Shown here: one piece after another, positions 1 through 19,972 of the stretch
How positions within the stretch are numbered: position 1 is the stretch's first letter
Layout of the letters: every line of letters begins with the position of its first letter
NCBI GenBank assembly: GCA_945870155.1
Contig: CAMBSB010000038.1
Coordinates: forward strand, 1-33,518
Length of the DNA: 33,518 nt
Origin: Paludibacter jiangxiensis
GTDB lineage: Bacteria; Bacteroidota; Bacteroidia; Bacteroidales; Paludibacteraceae
Direction of reading: 5' to 3'
The notes under the pieces: generated by a model
The model's database searches: none
The model's input: the letters and a program-made list of their open reading frames with translations, nothing else
Told to the model about the DNA's origin: nothing
Made by a program: the position numbers and the translations under genes

Positions 1-145
1 TTTAACGTGGTGCATAGTGCAGTTGTTTTGTTTAACTGCATAAAGATAAGCATTTTAAGTCAAATACACAAGCAATATGCTGATATTTTTCCGAAAACTT
101 TATAATATTAATTTATACGAATATATGGATGTTTTTGCGCAGTCT
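1..145. other. Foreign-looking sequence at the broken GH31 end; possible edge of a mobile element
   Basis: GH31 similarity stops near 145. To its left the sequence is AT-rich with stops in all three minus frames (113, 100 and 108) and no GH31-like translation. On the minus strand it holds a promoter-like pair (41-71) and an ATG at 15 reading MHHVK off the window. This fits the entry of an insertion sequence or other element, but no terminal repeat or transposase can be verified within the window. Confidence 0.35.
41..71 (-). promoter_or_regulatory. Candidate Bacteroidota promoter reading out of the left edge
   Basis: On the minus strand TTG (69-71), a 20-nt spacer and TATCTTTA (41-48) match the TTG-N17-23-TAnnTTTG layout with one mismatch in the -7 box. 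It points to a gene starting at or beyond the left edge (an ATG at 15-13 lies ~26 nt downstream). It is a pattern match only. Confidence 0.35.
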
Positions 146-2035
146 GACGCGTTGCAACGGACAGAAAGTGGCGTATTGAAACCAACGCAGAAAACGTTCG
201 TGATAAGTAGTGTCGGTGTACTGATTTGCCGGACGGAAAAAACCACCACAATCGGTTGTCCAGTAAGGTAATCCTGTAATAACATAGTTCAGACCAGCTG
301 GAATTTGACGACGAAGCGTTTCCCAATCATGCCCGATATCACCACTCCAGGTAGCTGAAGCATAGCGTTGTAGGCCTGAAAATGCACTACGGGTAAGTAT
401 GCACACGCGTTTTTCGGGCACATCATTGCGCGAACCTTCGTAAACCGTTTTAGTCACAAACAGCGGATAGATATTGCGTAATTTTTCACCGGGGGTGCTG
501 CCATTAATAACCTTACGACCTACCAAATCATCGTTTTCAGGCTCAGTAGCATCCTGCCACCAAGCATCAATTTTATAGGGCTTCAACAGGCGCGAACTGA
601 AGTTTTTCCAATAGCAAGCTGCTGCATCCGGATTCATAAAATCAATCCATTGCGTGTTGGGAATATAAAAGTTTTTAGCCGTCATTTCCTTACCCACTTC
701 GCATTTCGGATCCACTTTCGACCACACAGAAACCATCAACTTCGTGTTCAGCGTGTGGAGACTGTCCACCATTTTTGCGGGGTCGGGATAATCTTTTTCG
801 TCGAACTGCATGGCGTTCCAACCATATTTTCCCCAATACTGCCAATCCTGGACAATTAAATCCATGGGTAGTTTACGGTTGCGGAATTCATTGGTGTTTT
901 GCAAAATCTCATCTTGCGTCCGAAAACGCTCACGACAATGAATATATCCCAACGACCAGATGGGCATTAGCGGTGCAGCTCCTGACAATTGACGATACGA
1001 TGCAATGGCTTCGTCGGCCTTTCCGGCAAAAACCACGTAGTCGATACCTTCTGAAACTGGCGATTGAAAAACAGTTTCGTTGCTTGTAAGGCGTATGAAA
1101 AAGGTAGGTTTATCATTTTTATCACCGTTAATCAGCACGGTATGTTCTCCGGCTTCCAAATCGACAAAGGTACTTGCCGTAGGAGGTAACCAATAATTAG
1201 CAAAGCTTATAATCTCTTTATTATCAATAATCACACTGTGTTTTCGCGCCATTTTCTGTCCAACATCCAATAAAACTGCATAACGACCAGCCTTTTCCAC
1301 CTTAAACGTTCCGCCAAAACCAGCTTGCTGGCGAACTTCTTTTTTAGTTCCCTCGGTAGTGGTAATTTCTACTGTAATACTTTCGCCGCTAGATGAAACT
1401 GGCGATAATTCCACTTTGGTGTTGGCCGGATTAAAATCGGTAAGTCCGTAATTATGCCAAAGCAAACCGTAACCCTTGCTGGAATAAATAAATGGGATGG
1501 ATATCTGTGTATTCACCTGCGTCAATCGGCGTGTGAGGCCTTTAATATTCATGTATCCGTCCTGAAACTGCCCAGTGCCGAAAATAAATTCATCGGTAGG
1601 CGATGCAAAATGCTGTCGAGCAATCACAGTAGGTTCACCTTGCACTGTTGATGGAACAAGCGAGCGACCACCAGCTTCTTCGGCGAGCAGCAATTTGCCC
1701 TGTGCATCCAAAAACTTCAGTGCGCCAGTAGTACGGTTAACAACTACAGACATTTTTGCGGTAGCGAGTGTCAATTCCGAATCGGACTCATTAACGGTAA
1801 AGGCAGGAGTTGCCACCTTTTCGGTAAAAACCAAACTTGCATTTTCGTCAATAACGGATAACGAAAATTGCACCCGAATGACATTTTTACCCATCGGTTT
1901 CAGCACCAGTAAACCTTTCGCTAAATAAATTTCTAAACGGTCGGTTTTCTTTTCAAAACTAATCACTTGCGCCTTTGAAAAGTTGGAAAGAAAAAGTGAA
2001 ATTATCAGTAATAACTGGACTTTATATGTTTTCAT
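113..2035 (-). CDS. GH31 alpha-glycosidase (alpha-xylosidase-like), C-terminally truncated, probably non-functional
   Basis: I place the start at 2035, where MKTYKVQLLL opens a good signal peptide; the frame is open to an ATG at 2056 but those seven residues add nothing signal-like. From the 2035 start, a GH31 N-terminal beta-domain is followed by a PA14-like insert (~240-320; AGRYAVLLDVGQK, AGEHTVLINGD), as in CjXyl31A/BoGH31A-type alpha-xylosidases. The barrel has LIVQDWQYWGKYGW, DAWWQDATEPE (nucleophile D495) and SATWSGDIGHDWETLRRQIP (acid/base D566). After GLPYWTTDCGGFF and RWFQYATFCPLQRV the GH31 pattern ends, and a short unrelated tail (RLRKNIHIFV) meets a stop. The last barrel strand and the C-terminal beta-domains (a few hundred residues) are missing, so the product is probably inactive. 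Confidence 0.85.
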   Translation of the reverse strand: MKTYKVQLLLIISLFLSNFSKAQVISFEKKTDRLEIYLAKGLLVLKPMGKNVIRVQFSLSVIDENASLVFTEKVATPAFTVNESDSELTLATAKMSVVVNRTTGALKFLDAQGKLLLAEEAGGRSLVPSTVQGEPTVIARQHFASPTDEFIFGTGQFQDGYMNIKGLTRRLTQVNTQISIPFIYSSKGYGLLWHNYGLTDFNPANTKVELSPVSSSGESITVEITTTEGTKKEVRQQAGFGGTFKVEKAGRYAVLLDVGQKMARKHSVIIDNKEIISFANYWLPPTASTFVDLEAGEHTVLINGDKNDKPTFFIRLTSNETVFQSPVSEGIDYVVFAGKADEAIASYRQLSGAAPLMPIWSLGYIHCRERFRTQDEILQNTNEFRNRKLPMDLIVQDWQYWGKYGWNAMQFDEKDYPDPAKMVDSLHTLNTKLMVSVWSKVDPKCEVGKEMTAKNFYIPNTQWIDFMNPDAAACYWKNFSSRLLKPYKIDAWWQDATEPENDDLVGRKVINGSTPGEKLRNIYPLFVTKTVYEGSRNDVPEKRVCILTRSAFSGLQRYASATWSGDIGHDWETLRRQIPAGLNYVITGLPYWTTDCGGFFRPANQYTDTTYHERFLRWFQYATFCPLQRVRLRKNIHIFV

Positions 2036-2063
2036 AAAAATTGATTTATCGCACATCTGGTAT

Positions 2064-4666: not shown

Positions 4667-7030
4667 TTACAAATAAGCAAAAGATATGGCATTAATTGCA
4701 ATGTCGAAATTTGGATTAATAACAATATCCATTCGTCTATTTTCGGGTGTAACTTTAAGCCGCACTATCTTGGCATTCTTCACGCTTGCTTCAATTATTG
4801 TTTGCTCCGGTGCATGAAGTTTAAAATCGACATCCCACTTTGTAGGCCATGCCGGCAATAGGTATATTTTACCATCGCCATAAGGATTGGCAGCCATAAG
4901 CATCTCCTGCAAACCCACCATACCCGACCCACCCCAGTTATGGTCGGGCACCCAATCGTGACCAGGGCCAAAAAATGCAGGAAAACGCGCTTGTGGATTG
5001 AAATTACCGAGTTTAGCAACAATACGTTTTGCGGCTTCTTCGGTATTACCCATTGCAGCCATATTCACCACTACAGGCATCCAAGAGTAGTCGCGGTTCA
5101 CTTTTTCGAAACGCCGTGTAGGCAAAAGCTCCCAAGTATTTGTCAATAATTGTTCGGTGCCCGGGTGCGATACGCCTTTCAGGCGATAAGGCCATGCTAC
5201 ATAAAACTCGGGCAATTCCCATAGGTTATATTCATTTTTCCAACTTAGTGCTGGTTTTAAAATGGTTTTACCCTCTTTTTGTTCCATTGGCAAATCGGGC
5301 AAAATACGAATAAGATGTGCAAAATATTTTTTCTCTTCGGTCGAAACAAGTGTTTCGGGCAGTTGGGTTAATGCATCCGTTATTCGCATTAATCCAGCCA
5401 CCACTTCGGTAGGATTTTTTGCATCGATGAGCAGCTCGATGGCATTGGCCGGATATATGCTTAATCGTCCATCCATATCCAATTCCTGTCCCGTGAGTCG
5501 CATTGTTTCGTTGCGATAATATGTATCAAAAAATCGCACAGTACCTTTAATCCATTCCATATCAGAACTTATATCTTTGCCCAATGTTGTGTGGCCATTC
5601 AAAGTCATCCATGCATTTTCGAGCATCATTGCAAACGCGAATTTGAGATGTGGTGCGCTACATTGTCCAGTAGCAGTGGGCCAAAGCGAAAGCCTCCACA
5701 CATTGATAGGCTCGGGAAAAACAACCCCCTTTGCGCTTAGTACACGAGCACGAGCAGCCCCCGATGCCGCATGGTTGCGATAAAATGCATTGGAAGCTTC
5801 GAGCAAATCGGTGTCGCCAGCAGCAATGGTTGGCCAACCTAGCCAACGCTGGTTTTGTGCCATGAAATTACAAAATAGCCAATGGCGTAGATCGGGCGTT
5901 GATGGCTGAGCCGATTTACGTGACAACTCATCGTTGTTGTTACCCTTAATTTTGTCAAAATTATCAACTGTAAAAATGCCTCCATTGAATAGCAATGGTA
6001 ATTTCCCATTTTGATTGGTAGCTAACATATAGCGAAATAGTTGATAGTTGCGCCCCACTACCCAAGCCGAATCACTCTCATTTTTATGTTTATTAATAAA
6101 AATATACGATCGATTCCAATAGTCATCCCAGCGCAATTGTTCGTTTTTTGCTGCCGCCTTTAAAATTTTGTTATTTAAAAAAGCTTTAGCTTCGGTTTGC
6201 CATTGCTCGGGATTTAAGTTTTGACCAGCACGCAACGCTGCAACAATAGTATGCGCTTTGCTTTCGGCAGTTTGCACACTCCATGCCGAGCCTGACCATC
6301 GTTGCCAATCGACTTTTGTTTTCGACATTGGCGTGAGTGGCATATTGCATACAATAGCGCCGCCAAATACATTGTTTTCGGTAGGATTGTAAATACTACC
6401 AACAGCAAAGTGTTGTACTTTTAACTCACTTGGCAACAACGATTCGTATTTATTATTATGATGTGCCCACACAATGCCATTACTCGTCATCGATACATCG
6501 TCGGGGTTGAGCCAATACTTATGATTAAATAAATCGAGGTGCAAACCATCACGACGCACATCGCGCCATGAGCCAAAACTTATTTCGAATGAAGTTTTGC
6601 TACTAGATTTTGATTCAATAATTAGATTTTCTCCTGCAAACCACAATTTTAGTTGAAGCGAAACGCCATTTTTTGATACAGCATTAATTTTAATTGAACC
6701 CGACTGGATATCAAGATTTTGTGAAAAAGAAACCAAATTATTTAATGTATAATTGACAGGGGTAATGCGCAAAGCACCTAATTTGAGCAGTTTCGCTCCC
6801 TCGTCATAAGCCATATTATGCGCTAAATAGAGCCACAAAGCACCATCCTGCACCCATACATTGGCACCTGCACCATAGCGCCCCGACAAGGGCATCGACT
6901 CCCATGCATCGGGCGAGGGCGTTGTCCAGTTAACATTATAACTTTCGAGCGAATTTATTTTTTTAGAAAAAACCATTTCGGCATTACTAAAAATTAGTGC
7001 ACAAAGAAAAAAAAGCAATTTATTATTCAT
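4667..7030 (-). CDS. DUF5703-type, GH95-like six-hairpin glycosidase
   Basis: This 787-residue protein has a signal peptide (~1-22). Residues ~31-285 match the DUF5703 N-terminal beta-sandwich: YNVNWTTPSPDAWESMPLSG, GAGANVWVQDGALWLYLAHN and LLKLGALRI. The corresponding GH95 opening is a LPIGNGxLGAMVFG motif. Residues ~295-720 are helical and (alpha/alpha)6-like, with PLLFNGGIFTVDN, STPDLRHWLFCNF, QNQRWLGWPTIAAGD and NWGGSGMVGLQEML. The end is a small beta-domain (LLPAWPTKWDVDFKLHAPE). GH95 members are alpha-L-fucosidases or alpha-L-galactosidases. DUF5703 proteins are related by fold, but as far as I know their activity is not established, so this is a candidate exo-glycosidase. No T9SS signal is seen. 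It opens the last gene block, 47 bp before the GH2 gene. Confidence 0.74.
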   Translation of the reverse strand: MNNKLLFFLCALIFSNAEMVFSKKINSLESYNVNWTTPSPDAWESMPLSGRYGAGANVWVQDGALWLYLAHNMAYDEGAKLLKLGALRITPVNYTLNNLVSFSQNLDIQSGSIKINAVSKNGVSLQLKLWFAGENLIIESKSSSKTSFEISFGSWRDVRRDGLHLDLFNHKYWLNPDDVSMTSNGIVWAHHNNKYESLLPSELKVQHFAVGSIYNPTENNVFGGAIVCNMPLTPMSKTKVDWQRWSGSAWSVQTAESKAHTIVAALRAGQNLNPEQWQTEAKAFLNNKILKAAAKNEQLRWDDYWNRSYIFINKHKNESDSAWVVGRNYQLFRYMLATNQNGKLPLLFNGGIFTVDNFDKIKGNNNDELSRKSAQPSTPDLRHWLFCNFMAQNQRWLGWPTIAAGDTDLLEASNAFYRNHAASGAARARVLSAKGVVFPEPINVWRLSLWPTATGQCSAPHLKFAFAMMLENAWMTLNGHTTLGKDISSDMEWIKGTVRFFDTYYRNETMRLTGQELDMDGRLSIYPANAIELLIDAKNPTEVVAGLMRITDALTQLPETLVSTEEKKYFAHLIRILPDLPMEQKEGKTILKPALSWKNEYNLWELPEFYVAWPYRLKGVSHPGTEQLLTNTWELLPTRRFEKVNRDYSWMPVVVNMAAMGNTEEAAKRIVAKLGNFNPQARFPAFFGPGHDWVPDHNWGGSGMVGLQEMLMAANPYGDGKIYLLPAWPTKWDVDFKLHAPEQTIIEASVKNAKIVRLKVTPENRRMDIVINPNFDIAINAISFAYL

Positions 7031-11883: not shown

Positions 11884-13053
11884 CTACTTAAAGTTTAATG
11901 GAATATGCGCATTAAAAGTGTGTTTTACATTACCATCCTCCAAACTATCGCAAGCCACAAAAAGCGCACGTGGTATTCCTTTTTCGATAAGAAGTTGTGG
12001 GCGTTCCATGTGCGTAAGTTTTATTTGCTTTCCATTTTTCATTGTAAAACCGAGAGTTGATACCAATGCATGTTTAGCCGGCTTCCAGTCGAATCCATCC
12101 ACCGAATAAAACAACACCAACGAGCGGCCGGCTTTTGTAAACTCACCATGCATATCTTTGGCAATGGCATAGTAGCAATTGTCCTGATACCAGATATAGG
12201 GATCTTCGGCAGGAAACATAGAACCCGGAACTGTAAAAATTGGCTTATTCATTTTTTCGAACGGACCATCGGGCCGTGAAGCCACAGCGCACAAATGCAC
12301 TACAGGTCCACCAAATGGCATTGGTTTGCGTTTGGCCACCGCTTTATATACCATCAAATACTTACCATCCTGCATGCGCGTAACCGATGGATTGGCCATC
12401 ATCAAAGCATCATGCGCATCGGGGTCGGGCGACACATCAATCAGCGGTTTATCAAAGCGTTTCCACGGACCATAAGGCGATTCGGCAACCGCCACACCTA
12501 TACGCTGATTGTTGCGGTGGGTCATATTCAAGCCGTTTTTCACATTTACACCATCGCCATAATTGCCGGCATAATACAAATAGTACTTTCCTTCAAAAAA
12601 ATGAATGGTAGGATTGTGGGTATAATGTCCGTCCCAAAAAGCGGGTCCACGAGCAGGTAATGTAACATCCGAAAATTTGTATGGACCTAAGGCTTTGTTG
12701 GAAACAGCATGGGCAATTTCGGAATGCGTTACCCAGGCATTGAAAGAATACTTTTTGTGCCAACGGGAATAAAAAATATGGTATTTTCCGTCCTTACATT
12801 TGATGGGCGACGACCCCCAAGTAAAGAGTGAATCATTTTCGAAAATGGAATAATCGGCCACTTTCCCGAAAGCTTTCCCCATATTGAGCTCACCTACCGG
12901 TGCAAGTGCTTTTTTGGCGAACTTACATTTCTGTGCGGATATATGCTTAGACGAAAGCAGATCAGGGCTTAAGAACAAGAACAACAAAATTAGAAATGGC
13001 AAAGCCGAACAAAGCAGTTTTTTTAACAAATTAGGTCTTTTCATCTCAATCAT
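11884..13053 (-). CDS. GH43-like five-bladed beta-propeller glycosidase
   Basis: This 389-residue protein has a hydrophobic N-terminus (~1-40; a Met4 start is also possible) acting as signal peptide or anchor. Propeller-blade repeats are visible: WGSSPIKCKDGKYHIFYSRW (~79-98), a HNPTIHFFEGKYYLYYAGN blade (146-164), NPSVTRMQDGKYLMVYKAV (221-239), AEDPYIWYQDNCYYAIAKD (282-300) and MERPQLLIEKGIPRALFVA (349-367). Intervening SPYGPWKRF and RPDGPFEKM turns are typical of clan GH-F/GH117/GH130-type propellers. Members remove arabinose, xylose, galactose or anhydro-galactose units. The GH43 'DP' general-base motif is not present in the first blade (SSPI instead), so the family is uncertain. No T9SS domain is seen, suggesting the periplasm. 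It starts 23 bp after the GH16 B stop. Confidence 0.72.
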   Translation of the reverse strand: MIEMKRPNLLKKLLCSALPFLILLFLFLSPDLLSSKHISAQKCKFAKKALAPVGELNMGKAFGKVADYSIFENDSLFTWGSSPIKCKDGKYHIFYSRWHKKYSFNAWVTHSEIAHAVSNKALGPYKFSDVTLPARGPAFWDGHYTHNPTIHFFEGKYYLYYAGNYGDGVNVKNGLNMTHRNNQRIGVAVAESPYGPWKRFDKPLIDVSPDPDAHDALMMANPSVTRMQDGKYLMVYKAVAKRKPMPFGGPVVHLCAVASRPDGPFEKMNKPIFTVPGSMFPAEDPYIWYQDNCYYAIAKDMHGEFTKAGRSLVLFYSVDGFDWKPAKHALVSTLGFTMKNGKQIKLTHMERPQLLIEKGIPRALFVACDSLEDGNVKHTFNAHIPLNFK

Positions 13054-13076: not shown

Positions 13077-15089
13077 TTAATTGTCAAAACCTACGTGTAT
13101 TTTTTTTGTAACAACTCCATCATTATTACGTAAGCGAACTATATAAATACCATTTCTTTTAAGTGTGAGTGAGCTTTCTCCTGTACTTACTTGCGTTGAA
13201 ACAAGCATTGCACCATCCATATTAAAGATTTCCACTTGTTGGTTGGTTTCAGATTTGACCATCAAATTATTCCCTGTTGTGTACACATGTGCATTGTTAA
13301 GCACCACAGGGCGAATAGCCGAAATGGAAGCATCGCCAAGACGGATAAGCGATATACTATCCATGTCAAATGTTCCCGCATTTCCAAAACCAAAGGTTAA
13401 TTTGCCCGAATAATCTTGTTTTAAATTCAGCTTATAACTATATGAACTCCAGGCAGATGTGGGTATTACAACTCGTGGAGTGACATCATCCATAAACATG
13501 GAATTATCGTTATACATATTACTGAATTTAAACAAAAATTTATTGTTCTCGGGCGTTACCTCGCTCGAACGTGCTTTGAAACGGAACAAATACTCACCTT
13601 CTTCGAGAACCACTTTTTGTCCCAAAATGGCCCCAAAAGGATTTGTACTTGCTTCAGATTTTATACGCAAAGATACTAACTTATCAGCTGGGTCAGTTCG
13701 GAGCCATGAGTAGGCAGTATAGTTAAGTACTTCGCGTGTCATATCCCAATTGATTGATCCGGCTGCAGTAACTTCAAAACCACCATTTTTAATATATTCG
13801 TAAGGTGTATCAGATGAAACAACCGGGTCGTAAACACGTACATAATCCACCTCCATTTGAGTGCCATGTATGGCATCGGTTACTGCACCTGCCCACGTGA
13901 TTATTGCTTCGCTGAGGTAAATGGGAGCAGCACTGTAACAAAAAGTGTTTTTTTCGGAACGCATTAATTTACCATCACAATAAAATTTTAACGAATCTGC
14001 TGTCCATTCTAAGCCAAAGTAATGATAATCGCGTCCAAAATTCACTCCCGCACCGGTAGAAACAACACTTTGAATATCAACCCATTCGGAGCCATTAAAA
14101 TACTGAACCTTATAATCGTCGAGAATACTCATATAGGTTGAACCACTCAACCAACCACTCACAAACTGAATGCAACCAATTGTTTTAGCAGCTGCAAATT
14201 CAAATTCAAGCCATTTGGAACCGGCAGTTTGCGAAACCCAATGAGTACTGAGTGAACCATCGGCAGCTTTCGGAATTTCCCATCCCAATCCATAAACACC
14301 ACTAGCAGTAATTTGTGTTTGCGCATCACGGGCAAAGTTCACCAATCCGGCTTTGTCGGTATCGGCAGTAGCCGACATGGCAGATGGGTATCCTGCTGTA
14401 TTTACATTGTAAATTCTGAATTCCTGAATATGAAAATGGGACGCGTAATTAGATGTTAAACGGATTTTAGTAGTGGTTACCGGTATTTCAAGCTGAATAG
14501 TAACATCAGGATCAGAATTAAAACTATATGATTTGCTTGAACTTGGATGCGATTGAGCACCGGTTGTAGGATTAGTTATAATGTCAGTCCAGTTATGAAT
14601 ATTTGTATTCATTTCTGATGGAAAATGACCCTCATTTATGTCAATTTCGAATTTTTTACCTACAGTCGGAGCCGTTTGACTCATCAACCAAAATGAATTA
14701 TTGGTACCTGTAGCAGCAGCATACTTATAGCGGCACTCGTAATAGCCATATTTAAACTGTTGTTTTGTCCAAATACTTCCCGAAGTCCAGTTTTGACCAC
14801 CACGAGTTTCTTTTCGGTTCTGAAGTTTCAAGCTACCATTGCTCACCACCGCATTCTCGCGCCAGCGACTGCAAAGAATATGCGTATTGGGACCATTCTG
14901 TGAATACCAACCATTGTCTAGCAACGCGTCGGGATAATCAAATTCGTCGTTCCACACCAATCGCCATTTGTCGTTACCTCCCGGCAAAATAGGCTTGGGA
15001 GCATCGGCAGCCTGAATATGATTTGCAATAATTAAGAAGAAAATAACAGATTGAAATAATCTATTAAAACAATTTGAATGGTGTTTCAT
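13077..15089 (-). CDS. T9SS-secreted GH16 endo-glycanase with a discoidin-like domain inserted in the catalytic fold (GH16 B)
   Basis: This 670-residue protein has a signal peptide (~1-27). The GH16 fold begins at WRLVWNDEFDYPDALL (~42-57) and has GYYECRYKYA and the catalytic motif EIDINE at 148-153 (E148, D150, E153), then MNTNIHNW. The fold is then interrupted by ~170 residues of discoidin-like sequence (~185-352) and resumes at YHYFGLEWTADSLKFYCDGK, ending MEVDYVRVYDP (~421). A CBM-like module (NGGFEVTAAGSINWDMTR, ~432-590) and a T9SS type A sorting domain (~600-670, with NGIYIVRLRNNDG) follow. Both C-terminal modules closely match those of the neighbouring GH16. It should be a surface endo-enzyme. 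Gaps to its neighbours are 37 and 23 bp. The activity is retaining endo-hydrolysis; the substrate is unassigned. Confidence 0.87.
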   Translation of the reverse strand: MKHHSNCFNRLFQSVIFFLIIANHIQAADAPKPILPGGNDKWRLVWNDEFDYPDALLDNGWYSQNGPNTHILCSRWRENAVVSNGSLKLQNRKETRGGQNWTSGSIWTKQQFKYGYYECRYKYAAATGTNNSFWLMSQTAPTVGKKFEIDINEGHFPSEMNTNIHNWTDIITNPTTGAQSHPSSSKSYSFNSDPDVTIQLEIPVTTTKIRLTSNYASHFHIQEFRIYNVNTAGYPSAMSATADTDKAGLVNFARDAQTQITASGVYGLGWEIPKAADGSLSTHWVSQTAGSKWLEFEFAAAKTIGCIQFVSGWLSGSTYMSILDDYKVQYFNGSEWVDIQSVVSTGAGVNFGRDYHYFGLEWTADSLKFYCDGKLMRSEKNTFCYSAAPIYLSEAIITWAGAVTDAIHGTQMEVDYVRVYDPVVSSDTPYEYIKNGGFEVTAAGSINWDMTREVLNYTAYSWLRTDPADKLVSLRIKSEASTNPFGAILGQKVVLEEGEYLFRFKARSSEVTPENNKFLFKFSNMYNDNSMFMDDVTPRVVIPTSAWSSYSYKLNLKQDYSGKLTFGFGNAGTFDMDSISLIRLGDASISAIRPVVLNNAHVYTTGNNLMVKSETNQQVEIFNMDGAMLVSTQVSTGESSLTLKRNGIYIVRLRNNDGVVTKKIHVGFDN

Positions 15090-15126: not shown

Positions 15127-17658
15127 TCAACTAATAAAAAACTTCTTTGTTAGTACAGAATTATCATTCCAAAGTCGAACGACACATAAGCCTTTTTGTT
15201 GAAGTACAACTATAGTATTTTCGCCGGCAGGTATTCGTTTAGAAACAAAGAGAAGTCCCGCAAGCGAAAAAATTTGGAGATACTGAGCAGTTGTTGATGT
15301 TACAATTAGCTTACCATCAATCACTCTCATGTTTGCATCGTTATGATAATTTGTTGGTAAACCCGAAACCACATTCCCCATTCGAACAAGAGATATGCTA
15401 TCCATATCGAAAGCACCTGAATTTGAAAAACCAAAATTCAGACGAGCACTAAAATCTTCGTTCAGATCCACTACATAGCTGTACGATTGCCATGCTGTAC
15501 CGGGAGTAACTATTCGAGGCGTTGTATCGTTTAGCATGATGGTCTGCGCAGAATTATAATCAGTAAACTTAAATCGAAAAGTAGTAACCGACATTGTAGT
15601 ATTGGTGGCTCGTGCTTTAAATCTCAAAAGGTATCTACCCCTACTAACAGCAATTTTTTGCGATAGGCTTGCACCAAAAGGATTGGCACTTTGCTCAGCT
15701 ACAACCCGCAAAGATACGAGCTTTTCGGCTGGGTCGGTTTTGAGCCATGTAAAAGCAGAGAAATTTAGCATATCGCGGGTCATTTCCCAATTTGTTTGTC
15801 CTACAGTGGTTGTTTCGAACCCTCCATTTTTGATATAATCAGAACCAGGATCGCCCATAATGGCAATGTTATAGACACGGAGATTCTGTATTGAACCTTT
15901 GAAGTTCTTCATGGTTGTGTTGGTGTTCACTATGGACGAATCGGGCAAAACCACATCGCCCACAGCAGAATAAGCCGAACCTACTGCACCAAGCCTTCCC
16001 GCGGCTGTATCATCTTTTGTGAGCTGTGTTATTCCTGTAACTTTTGTAACAAGGTTTCCGTTGATAAATATAAAAGCAGTTCCATTATTAAAAACACAAC
16101 AAACATTCACCGACTGACCCGCTGTGTAAACTTTGGGTGCCAATACATCGGTATGATTAGCCACACTACCAATTCTGAAAATCAAACTTCCGTCTTCATT
16201 CAGTTGCACAGCCCAACCTGAATTTCCGGTCTTTGGTATTCGGGCAATAGGGGTCATATTAGCCATCATATCGGCAGTTAATGTAAACGATACTGACATG
16301 GCATCGCCATAGCCAACATTGCGTGCGAAAAAGTAAAATTTATCATCGCCTATAAATTTAATTGGTTCTTTTTCGGCCAATTTCCACATGGGTTCTCCTA
16401 AGGTTTCAAAAGGTTGTTGTGCAGGTATTTCCTGACCTGCCAACACAGGTTTCATAAAGTTAATATCATCAATTTCCAACCATTGTCCGGCAGCTCCCGA
16501 GGCTACAATATCAAAATTAACTTTGTTGTTAGTCACATGAATGCGAGGGATGCTTATTTTTGTCCAGGTGGAACCGGCAAATATGTCGGCAAATACTTCT
16601 GCACCACCAAAACCGTTTGCCTTCAACCTTGCTTCGGCATGACCACCCGACGAGCGCACCATAGCCGTGATCGTATAATCGCCATTCATAATATAACTAA
16701 GATTCTGTGAAAGTATAGTTTGATAAGCAGCAGTTTTGGATATTCGAAGTTTGTAATTGTCACGCGACGCACCTCCCTTTACAACACTCACTGCATCGGC
16801 AGTTCCTCCTACAATCCATGAAACAGGTTTAGAAGCTGTTATTTTATCCTGATTGAATTCGAAATTTCCATTTGGCAACAAGTTGTAGCCGGGATAGTCT
16901 TTGGCATAATACCTGAAATACTTAAACAGTGTTTCGCCCGGCAGGTTTGCCGCATCTACAGTGCCTACGCCATTGAGTGCAGTGAGCCATACCATTTGCG
17001 TTGCATTGAGCTCGTCCCATTCAGCTTTGGCTACAATATTGCCATTATCATAAAAAATAACACCTTCGGGCGTTCGTTCGTAAGCATCCAAAAACCAACC
17101 GTCGGCATTGAATTTGAAAGGTATATTGGCTCTGTGAGGCCATGGATATTCCGAATAAGCAGCCGGACAAATCAAATAATACAAATTATTTGTTGCCATA
17201 GAGTATTTGGAATCAATCTCATACGAATCGATTTCGAAAACTGTTTTGTTGGGAACTAGACTGCCCCGTTGCCAAAAAGCGGAGTGAACGCCTCTGCCTG
17301 CCATAAAAGGCTTCGAAAGACATTCGTAATAACCGTAACCAAAATCATCTTTAGTAATGATGCCACCACCTGTATTTTCGCTAACTCCGTTAATTTTTTC
17401 GTATTTTGCTACTACATGCAGCATGCCATCCTTAACATATACATTTTCTTTCAGATTTAACCCGTTTATACCTGTGCCTGTTCGTGGCCCTATGCGATAA
17501 TACCAATTGTTGGTATTGAGTGTATCGGCTATGAATGATTCATCAAATAGCAACACGTAACCTTTATTGGCAGGTGGGTCTGCGTTTACAGTTGTTGTAA
17601 AAAACAACCAAAAAAGCATACTAAAAAATAGAGTTATGGAGAAAAACGAATTTTTCAT
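15127..17658 (-). CDS. T9SS-secreted multidomain GH16 endo-glycanase (GH16 A)
   Basis: This 843-residue protein has a signal peptide (~1-26). Residues ~30-255 are a GH16 jelly roll: LLFDESF start, GYGYYECLSKP, and the catalytic motif EIDSYE at 142-147 (nucleophile E142, D144, acid/base E147) in the beta-bulge ExDxxE form. Residues ~258-402 form a CBM4/9-like module (LLPNGNFEF... LEIDDINF). Residues ~405-605 are LamG/ConA-like. A second CBM-like module (NGGFETTTVGQTNWEMTR, ~607-760) precedes the T9SS type A sorting domain (~770-843). GH16 enzymes are retaining endo-hydrolases of beta-glucans, xyloglucan or galactans. The sorting domain places it at the cell surface, where it would make oligosaccharides for the SusCD pairs. 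The neighbouring genes lie 13 bp upstream and 37 bp downstream. The GH16 subfamily cannot be assigned by eye. Confidence 0.86.
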   Translation of the reverse strand: MKNSFFSITLFFSMLFWLFFTTTVNADPPANKGYVLLFDESFIADTLNTNNWYYRIGPRTGTGINGLNLKENVYVKDGMLHVVAKYEKINGVSENTGGGIITKDDFGYGYYECLSKPFMAGRGVHSAFWQRGSLVPNKTVFEIDSYEIDSKYSMATNNLYYLICPAAYSEYPWPHRANIPFKFNADGWFLDAYERTPEGVIFYDNGNIVAKAEWDELNATQMVWLTALNGVGTVDAANLPGETLFKYFRYYAKDYPGYNLLPNGNFEFNQDKITASKPVSWIVGGTADAVSVVKGGASRDNYKLRISKTAAYQTILSQNLSYIMNGDYTITAMVRSSGGHAEARLKANGFGGAEVFADIFAGSTWTKISIPRIHVTNNKVNFDIVASGAAGQWLEIDDINFMKPVLAGQEIPAQQPFETLGEPMWKLAEKEPIKFIGDDKFYFFARNVGYGDAMSVSFTLTADMMANMTPIARIPKTGNSGWAVQLNEDGSLIFRIGSVANHTDVLAPKVYTAGQSVNVCCVFNNGTAFIFINGNLVTKVTGITQLTKDDTAAGRLGAVGSAYSAVGDVVLPDSSIVNTNTTMKNFKGSIQNLRVYNIAIMGDPGSDYIKNGGFETTTVGQTNWEMTRDMLNFSAFTWLKTDPAEKLVSLRVVAEQSANPFGASLSQKIAVSRGRYLLRFKARATNTTMSVTTFRFKFTDYNSAQTIMLNDTTPRIVTPGTAWQSYSYVVDLNEDFSARLNFGFSNSGAFDMDSISLVRMGNVVSGLPTNYHNDANMRVIDGKLIVTSTTAQYLQIFSLAGLLFVSKRIPAGENTIVVLQQKGLCVVRLWNDNSVLTKKFFIS

Positions 17659-17671
17659 TTTGAATTATTAA

Positions 17672-19972
17672 TTAACGGTCACCAATAGTAATTCCTTTTT
17701 TGAAATAATCCAGACCGTACGATATAGTAACCGGTTTGGAAGGGGTTTTCAGGGTAACACTAAAATATGGTGAATTTGTCGACTCTTCCACAAGCGTAAG
17801 TTTTGTAACACGCCCTTTTTTGTCGGTCATATCAACAGTAATTGTTTCAACCTTGTTATAATCAAAGTTCTGAGGCACCTGTAGTCGGACTAATGTTTTT
17901 CTTTTTTGCTTTTGCTTTTCGAACTTAGTATCGTAAGCCGCCAAATATGCTAAGCTCAGGTTGTAAGCCACGTTGAACGACACCCAGCCTTCTGTCCAAC
18001 CTATATCTCCACGCTCGGGATGATAAGGGTAATGTGCATTTTTTGGTGAACCTTCGAGAACGAATCGTGCGTTTTCGAGTTGTCCAATTCCTCCGGGATG
18101 CTGGTGATACCATCCTAAATCAACACCTTCAATTTCGGCAACAGCATCGTAAGAGCAATGTCGACCACAAGGGTTACGTCCAAAAGAATTATCGAGCTGT
18201 GCAAAAGCTATTTGCAACAGTCGTTCTGCTTTGGGTTTATTATCCACAAAATTTATCATAGACAATACAGCAGCAGGGAAGCCCACTATATTTCCTACTT
18301 CGTTCCAATGTTGAGGCAAGTTTCCTGTAGGGCACCACTGATCCTTATCGTCGAGCTTTCGAAAGTCCCACATATTATCCGAGCGCCGAATAACCACATC
18401 TGCCCATGCATCAATTTTTGCTTTTAATCCGGCTGGCGCTCTGTCGGGATATTGTTTCAGCATATAAGCCAAACTTGTCATGGTAATAAATTCGCTCATG
18501 CGTTGTCCTTTAGTGGTCATAGGGTCGTTCCAATCGAGCTTTTGAACCATCCATTCCACTTGCTTATAAGCTGCATCGAAATAGATGGTCGCGTCATTCA
18601 TACCATCGCGTTTAGCCACTTCGTACATCATCAAATTAGGAATGATCGATGCACCCGGAGGCAAGGCGCCTTTGGTACTCCCAATTCTTGTTTTAAGTGA
18701 CAGCATATTGTGTCCGGGACTTTCTTCGTAGGCATACACACGGTCTACTTTATCTATTTGCCAAATACTCAATGCATAAGCTTTTACACGATCATAATTT
18801 TGTTGTGGCAACCATTGTTTGATATAAGGCCATGCATAAAGAAAATAGGCCAATTGTCCTTTGAAATGCTCGTGCGCTAGTTTTTGAGACACAATTACAT
18901 CGGCTCCCCAATGAATAAGTTTTACAATATCAGGTGCGCTTTCGTCGTAAGGTTTTAGAGAGCCCCATAGTGTAGTATCGGTTGGAGCCTGGTATTTAAC
19001 TTGCTTGTTCATACGCACATAAGCTTCGGGATGCGAAAGGTATTGCGGCACTAAGGTATGTAGCTCCCACCCAAAATGCGAGTCATCGCGCCAACTATAG
19101 GTGCCCTGACATTTTTTTGTGTAATTACCCACGTAATGACGACTGTCAATCATAAAATCCATAGCATCCTGATACGTAACGCGCTCAATCCACCAATGCC
19201 CAATGCGAAATGGAAAAGACTTAAACGTATCGGCTACTATTACATATTCTTTATTGCTAACTGGCTCAAAAGCAGTAAAATCACCAATCTTATGACGAAT
19301 AACGCCCGTATACAATGCTTCGGATTGTCCTTTTTCTACAATTTTAAAAGCGGTACCCTCATCAACTAAGGGTGCCGTAAAACGTTTGGGTTTTCCTATA
19401 TTGAAACCACTCTGATTAATATAAATTTTGGGCACATGCGGTTCTTTTTCACCCACATAACCCGTAACACTGGTGCCCAATGCCGGAATGCCCAAGCGAT
19501 ACACAGACCACAAACTCAACTCACGTACCATAAATTGATCGTGTTTTGTTTTTGTGAATGTAATTTTTAAACTATCAGTAATTACATCAATAGTCGCATC
19601 GAAAGCCAATGCTACAGCGCCAAATTTGTTACCTTTCACATTGGCTGACGGTATGTTTTGCCAGACTCCATTGTTGGCAAATTCAACATTAAACTCTTCC
19701 ACAGGCATGTTAGCCGGGTTACCAAAATAAATGTGAATTCCACCTAAAGTTGTTTTTTTTGAAAACGAAACTACAATCCATGCAGGTTTATCAGCAGATG
19801 TTGCCCACTGCGACTGTTCGTTGACTAAGCCGTCGGTCAGAAACTTAGCTCCGGACACAGCACCCTTCAGTTCGGAGCTTACTGTAATTTTTTGGCTAAC
19901 TGCCAGACTTTCCTGAGCAAACAATGTGTATCCCAACATGAGAATACAAACTAATAATGCAATTCGTTTCAT
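17672..19972 (-). CDS. GH9-like glycoside hydrolase with N-terminal discoidin and cellulase Ig-like domains
   Basis: This 766-residue protein has a signal peptide (~1-20, ending in LFAQ) and no T9SS domain or lipobox, so it is probably periplasmic. Residues ~22-157 are an F5/8 type C (discoidin, CBM32-like) domain in normal strand order, ending DQFMVRELSLWSV. Residues ~180-258 match the CelD N-terminal Ig-like domain (IYINQSGFNIGKPKRFTAP). Residues ~260-680 look like an (alpha/alpha)6 GH9-type barrel: TYSWRDDSHFGWE (D296/D297) at the position of the GH9 Asp pair, SFGRNPCGRHCSYDA near 596-610 and a terminal WTEGWVSFNVAYNLSLAYL (E661) like the GH9 acid-bearing helix. A C-terminal beta-domain follows. 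GH9 enzymes cleave beta-glucans, including xyloglucan. The family call is fairly firm; the substrate is open. The start lies just past the terminator hairpin. Confidence 0.75.
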   Translation of the reverse strand: MKRIALLVCILMLGYTLFAQESLAVSQKITVSSELKGAVSGAKFLTDGLVNEQSQWATSADKPAWIVVSFSKKTTLGGIHIYFGNPANMPVEEFNVEFANNGVWQNIPSANVKGNKFGAVALAFDATIDVITDSLKITFTKTKHDQFMVRELSLWSVYRLGIPALGTSVTGYVGEKEPHVPKIYINQSGFNIGKPKRFTAPLVDEGTAFKIVEKGQSEALYTGVIRHKIGDFTAFEPVSNKEYVIVADTFKSFPFRIGHWWIERVTYQDAMDFMIDSRHYVGNYTKKCQGTYSWRDDSHFGWELHTLVPQYLSHPEAYVRMNKQVKYQAPTDTTLWGSLKPYDESAPDIVKLIHWGADVIVSQKLAHEHFKGQLAYFLYAWPYIKQWLPQQNYDRVKAYALSIWQIDKVDRVYAYEESPGHNMLSLKTRIGSTKGALPPGASIIPNLMMYEVAKRDGMNDATIYFDAAYKQVEWMVQKLDWNDPMTTKGQRMSEFITMTSLAYMLKQYPDRAPAGLKAKIDAWADVVIRRSDNMWDFRKLDDKDQWCPTGNLPQHWNEVGNIVGFPAAVLSMINFVDNKPKAERLLQIAFAQLDNSFGRNPCGRHCSYDAVAEIEGVDLGWYHQHPGGIGQLENARFVLEGSPKNAHYPYHPERGDIGWTEGWVSFNVAYNLSLAYLAAYDTKFEKQKQKRKTLVRLQVPQNFDYNKVETITVDMTDKKGRVTKLTLVEESTNSPYFSVTLKTPSKPVTISYGLDYFKKGITIGDR

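Follow-up and report, generated by a model that had tools for sequence, protein, structure and literature searches.

The 33,518-nucleotide stretch of Paludibacter jiangxiensis DNA analysed here (the window) encodes a predicted GH16 enzyme whose catalytic domain is interrupted by a stretch resembling a discoidin (F5/8 type C) domain with its two parts in reversed order. The locus raises the question of whether this stretch is one domain or the remains of two, and what it would do within the enzyme. The reading that we favour, with a probability of roughly 0.8, is that the gene encodes a presumably exported PUL GH16 enzyme with one complete, permuted discoidin domain in the loop before YHYFGLEW, most likely acting as a tethered accessory CBM (Table 1).

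The 670-residue protein is assigned to GH16 by its Pfam match, its motif and its predicted fold, and a glycosidase or transglycosylase activity is predicted. Pfam Glyco_hydro_16 matches two separate stretches of it (55 bits, cut-off 22; best stretch at residues 76–166), and the domain breaks off after EIDINE...HNW and picks up at YHYFGLEW, with residues 185–352 intervening. The initial annotation had proposed this split from the letters of the DNA, and the coordinates that it gave for the insert (14034–14537, minus strand) do correspond to these residues. E148, D150 and E153 lie within KFEIDINEGHF and make up an E-x-D-x-x-E motif; the form E-x-D-x-N-E is present in all 32 insert-bearing alignment rows that span the motif and in three of three insert-less relatives. 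Both sides of the split domain match laminarinases of solved structure, with the match to 4crq at residues 42–145. Prediction of the structure of residues 30–425, which had been put forward as a check, gave a confident AlphaFold2 model (26 sequences; mean pLDDT 89.3, pTM 0.79) with a predicted beta-jelly-roll for the GH16 part and, in Foldseek, matches to GH16 structures such as laminarinases (best E 1.8e-14). There are 131 Foldseek matches at E 0.001 or better, and the 50 listed are all, to judge by title or known family, GH16 proteins: laminarinases, carrageenases, agarases, porphyranases and others.

Table 1. Features of the split GH16 gene and its surroundings (window coordinates; residues are those of the 670-aa protein).
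Feature	Residues	Coordinates	Strand	Basis or remark
Split GH16 enzyme gene with nested permuted discoidin	670 aa	13077..15089	-	
GH16 N-terminal part	41-184	14538..14969	-	Pfam stretch, 4crq match, homologue alignment
GH16 catalytic motif E148-I-D-I-N-E153		14631..14648	-	Kept across homologue rows
Nested insert	185-352	14034..14537	-	Pfam, alignment; missing in siblings L126 and L127
Half A, predicted discoidin C-terminal strands, placed first	188-228	14406..14528	-	Profile matches of half A alone
Linker (old C-end to old N-end)	229-256	14322..14405	-	Cut-scan plateau 231-255; tandem-discoidin linker position
Half B, predicted discoidin N-terminal strands, placed second	about 257-346	14052..14321	-	Profile from position 5 to 88-89
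GH16 C-terminal part	353-424	13818..14033	-	Second GH16 stretch; alignment
C-terminal region	425-607	13269..13817	-	Common to neighbouring GH16-like protein
Type IX secretion C-terminal sorting domain	609-666	13092..13265	-	TIGR04183
GH43/GH117-like enzyme gene		11884..13053	-	Recurrent neighbour of insert-bearing GH16
Ordinary-order F5/8C domain in GH9-like protein		19541..19891	-	Internal control

The sorting domain is recognized by TIGR04183 (NCBIfam; 38.8 bits, cut-off 23), and the Pfam counterpart PF18962 scores 24.6 bits, under its cut-off of 27. The enzyme is presumably exported and would then be released or held at the surface through this domain. The region at residues 425–607 has no Pfam match at E 1, and residues 413–666 are 45% identical to the product of 15133–15894. 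The latter lies in an adjacent second GH16-type gene (15127–17658), and the two genes, both on the minus strand, share the Pfam-less region before the sorting domain; the second gene has a GH16 match under the Pfam cut-off together with Laminin_G_3.

That the insert is related to discoidins, as the initial annotation suggested, is borne out by Pfam. PF00754 (F5_F8_type_C) scores 29.2 bits (cut-off 28.2) on the whole protein, where it matches residues 259–369 (profile 1–110 of 127), and 34.9 bits on the insert alone in native order, a match confined to the insert's second part (profile 1–82). When residues 250–352 are moved ahead of residues 185–249 the score rises to 39.9 bits and the match extends over profile 1–114. 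Rotated versions score above native ones in all nine family members, and the match reaches profile position 112–117 of 127 in eight of them. The GH9-like protein of the window (17672–19972) does carry an F5/8C domain in the normal order, as had been noted (residues 28–144, profile 1–118), and rotation of this control lowers its Pfam score from 44.6 to 39.4. Because Pfam detects mainly the second half in native order, similar nested permuted domains may be overlooked by it.

The order of the two halves was resolved further with two discoidin models. The first was made from 63 stretches in 46 ORFs, including duplicates and three matches from insert-holding loci, and the cleaned model from 46 ordinary domains, with duplicates and all insert-holding loci left out; many of the ordinary domains behind the model came from loci found by the insert profile. 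Under the cleaned model, rotation lifts the window insert from 64.5 bits (native order, profile 5–88 of 130) to 75.7 bits (5–130), a value that none of 100 first-half shuffles equalled. Half A alone matches positions 90–130 of 130 (89–129 of 129 in the first model), at the C-terminal end of the profile although it comes first in the protein, which is the order that the initial annotation had described. The first model gave 60.4 bits for the native window insert and 76.5 for the rotated one, and in a cut scan with this model the best cut is a plateau at residues 231–255, i.e. the linker between the halves.

The same behaviour extends to the 33 inserts of the family. In every one of them half A alone maps to the C-terminal third of the cleaned profile, where 16 of 660 shuffles land, and in 27 it scores above 7.1 bits, the best of the 660. 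Rotation raises the score in 30 of 33 inserts and by at least 2 bits in 26 (median gain 5.7); coverage then comes to within five positions of the profile end in 25, and the rotated score is unmatched by any of 100 shuffles in 18. All 46 ordinary domains drop when rotated (median −39.6 bits). The corresponding figures with the first model are a gain in 29 of 33 (median 11.0), coverage as far as position 125 or beyond (of 129) in 27, 23 inserts whose rotated score none of 100 shuffles attained, and 50 of 50 ordinary domains lowered (median −42); the median gain is thus smaller after cleaning (11.0 to 5.7), and the effect persists. The gain is below 2 bits with the cleaned model in seven of 33 inserts (L017, L099 and L102–L106), largely the divergent ones, and half A alone is no better than the best shuffles in six (L158, L099 and L103–L106). 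A profile search of the PDB gave no real difference between the rotated and native versions (best 24.9 and 24.3 bits). Judged by its profile matches, then, the insert is one complete F5/8C domain in circularly permuted order: it covers positions 5–130 of 130 after rotation and departs from the canonical linear order.

A profile of the insert in native order behaves as a permuted unit should on other proteins. On L109, a single discoidin of the ordinary kind whose protein recurs in L175, the half B match precedes the half A match, and in ten of 11 tandem-discoidin proteins the profile runs from the last part of one domain across the linker into the first part of its neighbour, the linker of the insert coinciding in position with the inter-domain linker. 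This bridging would also be expected if the insert were made of the tail of one discoidin and the head of a following one, each incomplete and not packed against the other. We consider such an arrangement very improbable, since the halves are complementary on the cleaned profile without overlap (5–88 and 90–130), the counterparts of positions 190 and 345 are separated by 152–163 residues in all 33 rows, and both AlphaFold2 models are high in mean confidence; the complementarity of the halves in particular disfavours two separate incomplete domains.

The second of these models, of the insert alone (nine sequences), has a mean pLDDT of 82.5 and a pTM of 0.82, with the ends (1–7 and 161–168) at pLDDT below 50. 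No Foldseek match to the isolated insert reaches E 0.001. Ranked by E-value, weak matches to the CBM-like domains found in acetyl xylan esterases lead (0.04–0.05), and a discoidin (5y4m) and two CBM32 structures (4a3z and 4a6o) follow at weak E-values of 0.25–0.44, with probabilities of 0.63, 0.60 and 0.47, respectively. Foldseek aligns along the sequence order, and a permuted domain is therefore expected to match poorly. The discoidin fold of the insert is at this stage a prediction from models.

A search for other GH16 proteins with the same insertion, as the initial annotation had advised, found the architecture in 25 genomes of the Bacteroidota and Verrucomicrobiota, from which 33 proteins were aligned. 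The insert is in open frame in all 33 (one of which is cut by a contig end), which rules out an assembly or frame artefact. Scanning GTDB species genomes yielded 51 loci, six of which (L013–L018) hold full split-domain relatives with 47–65% identity, among them Lutibacter citreus, a Flavicella bin and Pelagicoccus mobilis. In whole-genome samples, three of 295 genomes of the window's order have a match at E 1e-20, its own genome counted, and the one matching genome among 395 of its phylum is its own. Strong matches occur in seven of 397 genomes in the family of L016 (centre counted), where six further genomes have weak matches (23–26 bits) resembling ordinary discoidins, and 13 of 337 genomes in the phylum of L017 (centre counted) have matches at E 3.1e-15 or better that start in the first half of the profile. 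The row counts omit L010 (identical to L013), L108 (cut by a contig end), L094 and L095 (a copy with an internal stop) and the loci repeating the same genes (L065–L073 and L128–L155); L014:1-1065, cut by a contig end, enters the profile counts and is excluded from the identity counts and from the tree. The copy in L094 and L095 (G692:C12:156796-157291) is an extra insert-bearing one broken by the stop.

Position alone would allow the insert to be part of the GH16 substrate cleft, required for specificity or catalysis, a strong form of the binding platform near the cleft that the initial annotation had considered: it is nested soon after the catalytic motif, and the CBM-like domain of FjoAcXE-like esterases is described as supplying substrate-binding residues (PMC9105624). 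Its conservation and history speak otherwise. Mean pairwise identity is 0.37 for the insert as against 0.59 and 0.55 for the N- and C-terminal parts of the core, and the insert is the more similar part in one of 496 pairs and not above the core in the other 495, so it is ruled out as a best-conserved, catalytic-like part. In a tree restricted to the GH16 core (39 rows, 218 columns, four outgroup rows), L126 and L127, which have no insert and keep the catalytic motif, nest within the insert-bearing clade with support of 99/98; each adjoins an insert-bearing paralogue, in two genomes, the natural pairs being L126 with L012:2022-3305 and L127:1510-2292 with L127:2339-3709. A third insert-less relative, L156, sits on a long branch without placement. 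The simplest reading is one gain of the insert followed by at least two losses; that this permuted domain entered the same site several times seems less likely. Lower conservation and apparent loss both speak for an accessory module rather than a cleft-building role, and we regard the latter as unlikely.

How the permuted unit arose may be glimpsed in the tandem arrays. It could have been excised across two tandem discoidins, taking the closing part of one together with the linker and the opening part of its neighbour, or have come from an internal duplication followed by trimming; the bridging of neighbouring domains by the native profile suggests, at the level of sequence, how such a unit could form. 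The tandem-discoidin matches to A-linker-B come from Verrucomicrobiota proteins, and both of the two scanned with Pfam have a Glyco_hydro_cc domain. They do not single out a donor of the insert: any tandem array with a similar linker length is expected to match, and half B scores higher on the single discoidin of L109 (47.2 bits) than on the first domain of L110 (41.9 bits), so no donor is named. L166, L167 and similar proteins of the Verrucomicrobiota sample are ~1150–1750 residues long with two tandem discoidins, some of the ORFs being cut by the locus end; the two scanned have a ricin-type lectin domain, a Glyco_hydro_cc core and a MAM domain (just under cut-off in L167).

With an accessory CBM as the preferred reading, the nested CBM32-like discoidin would bind polymer next to the catalytic domain, outside the catalytic machinery. 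Many discoidin domains bind proteins or lipids, and a structural or protein–protein docking module that binds no sugar would agree with the alignment, in which no ligand site was identified: the residues kept in at least 30 of 33 rows look, in our judgement, mainly fold-typical. The setting of the gene makes such a docking role rather improbable, as the locus has two SusD-like proteins and several glycosidases, and CBM32-type discoidins are often carried by the enzymes of such loci.

The window holds two SusC/SusD pairs (the SusC proteins assigned by reading the sequence) and genes for GH31, GH2, two GH29-like, DUF5703, GH43/GH117-like, GH16, GH16-like and GH9-like proteins. Several of the best structural matches of the GH43/GH117-like protein are anhydro-alpha-L-galactosidases (GH117), each over partial length. 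Near insert-bearing genes in 24 other genomes, within the flanks retrieved, a homologue of this protein is found in ten, GH2 in nine and GH29 in five; G1349 is left out of this count, and the adjoining gene in G692 is the interrupted insert-bearing copy. The set resembles the agarose locus of a Bacteroides uniformis strain, which has GH2, GH16, GH117, GH29 and GH86 enzymes and sulfatases (PMC5849685), and galactan is on this analogy a plausible but tentative candidate for the substrate. The 14 window proteins include no Pfam match to a sulfatase or GH86, the GH31 and GH9-like genes would fit other polymers too, and neighbouring genes are only a suggestive clue to the substrate.

Three other genes of the window merit description. 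The GH31 gene (113–2056, minus strand) has a match that stops at profile position 289 of 328, where the frame is nearly at its end and the contig end is close, and is possibly truncated or frameshifted. The DUF5703 protein (4667–7030, minus strand) has solved relatives (9hyq and 9hmb), and the term DUF5703 was not found in open-licence PubMed Central papers. The GH9-like protein (minus strand) has a CelD_N match under the cut-off in addition to its F5/8C domain and no Glyco_hydro_9 match at E 1 or better, and its presumed catalytic part has no convincing match among solved structures.

Several known systems share parts of this architecture. The window enzyme is like GH16 laminarinases, carrageenases and agarases in its predicted jelly-roll, its E-x-D-x-x-E motif and its sequence and Foldseek matches (to laminarinases and kappa-carrageenases), and differs from them in having about 160 extra residues in the loop before YHYFGLEW; the main text of the GH16 subfamily roadmap contains neither 'insert' nor 'permut' (PMC6827312). 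Like F5/8 type C, discoidin and CBM32 domains, the insert is near-complete on the profile once rotated, whereas its linear order is permuted and it is nested in the catalytic domain rather than appended to it. Carbohydrate-binding modules within catalytic domains are described for Bacteroidetes loci, in GH10 xylanases with two inserted CBM4 modules (Xyn10C-like, Pm25) and in SusG with CBM58 in GH13, and an independent share in binding is argued for them (PMC7848910); the catalytic and CBM families are different from ours, and the descriptions given there do not present the modules as permuted. The engineered permutation of RoCBM21 (CP90) indicates that a CBM can tolerate permutation, with altered binding (PMC3511584), although that domain is laboratory-made, of another CBM family and not nested. 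BoPDA combines a CBM and a catalytic domain in nested fashion as the window GH16 does, with the difference that there the CE4 catalytic domain is the insert, within the CBM (PMC11713874). Titles and abstracts in open-licence PubMed Central yielded no natural permuted discoidin within a glycoside hydrolase. Nested CBMs and engineered CBM permutation are thus already known, and a natural permuted discoidin nested in GH16, as read from the profiles, appears to be new within that literature.

A wider scenario may be sketched tentatively, in which a permuted discoidin CBM derived from a tandem array was nested in GH16 once and then passed between Verrucomicrobiota and Bacteroidota, with later loss from some tandem paralogues, and in which it tunes the site or target of the enzyme. 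Because a paralogue with the insert stands beside one without it in two genomes, the role of the nested module is testable on natural pairs, which provide a ready test of what such a domain contributes to the enzyme.
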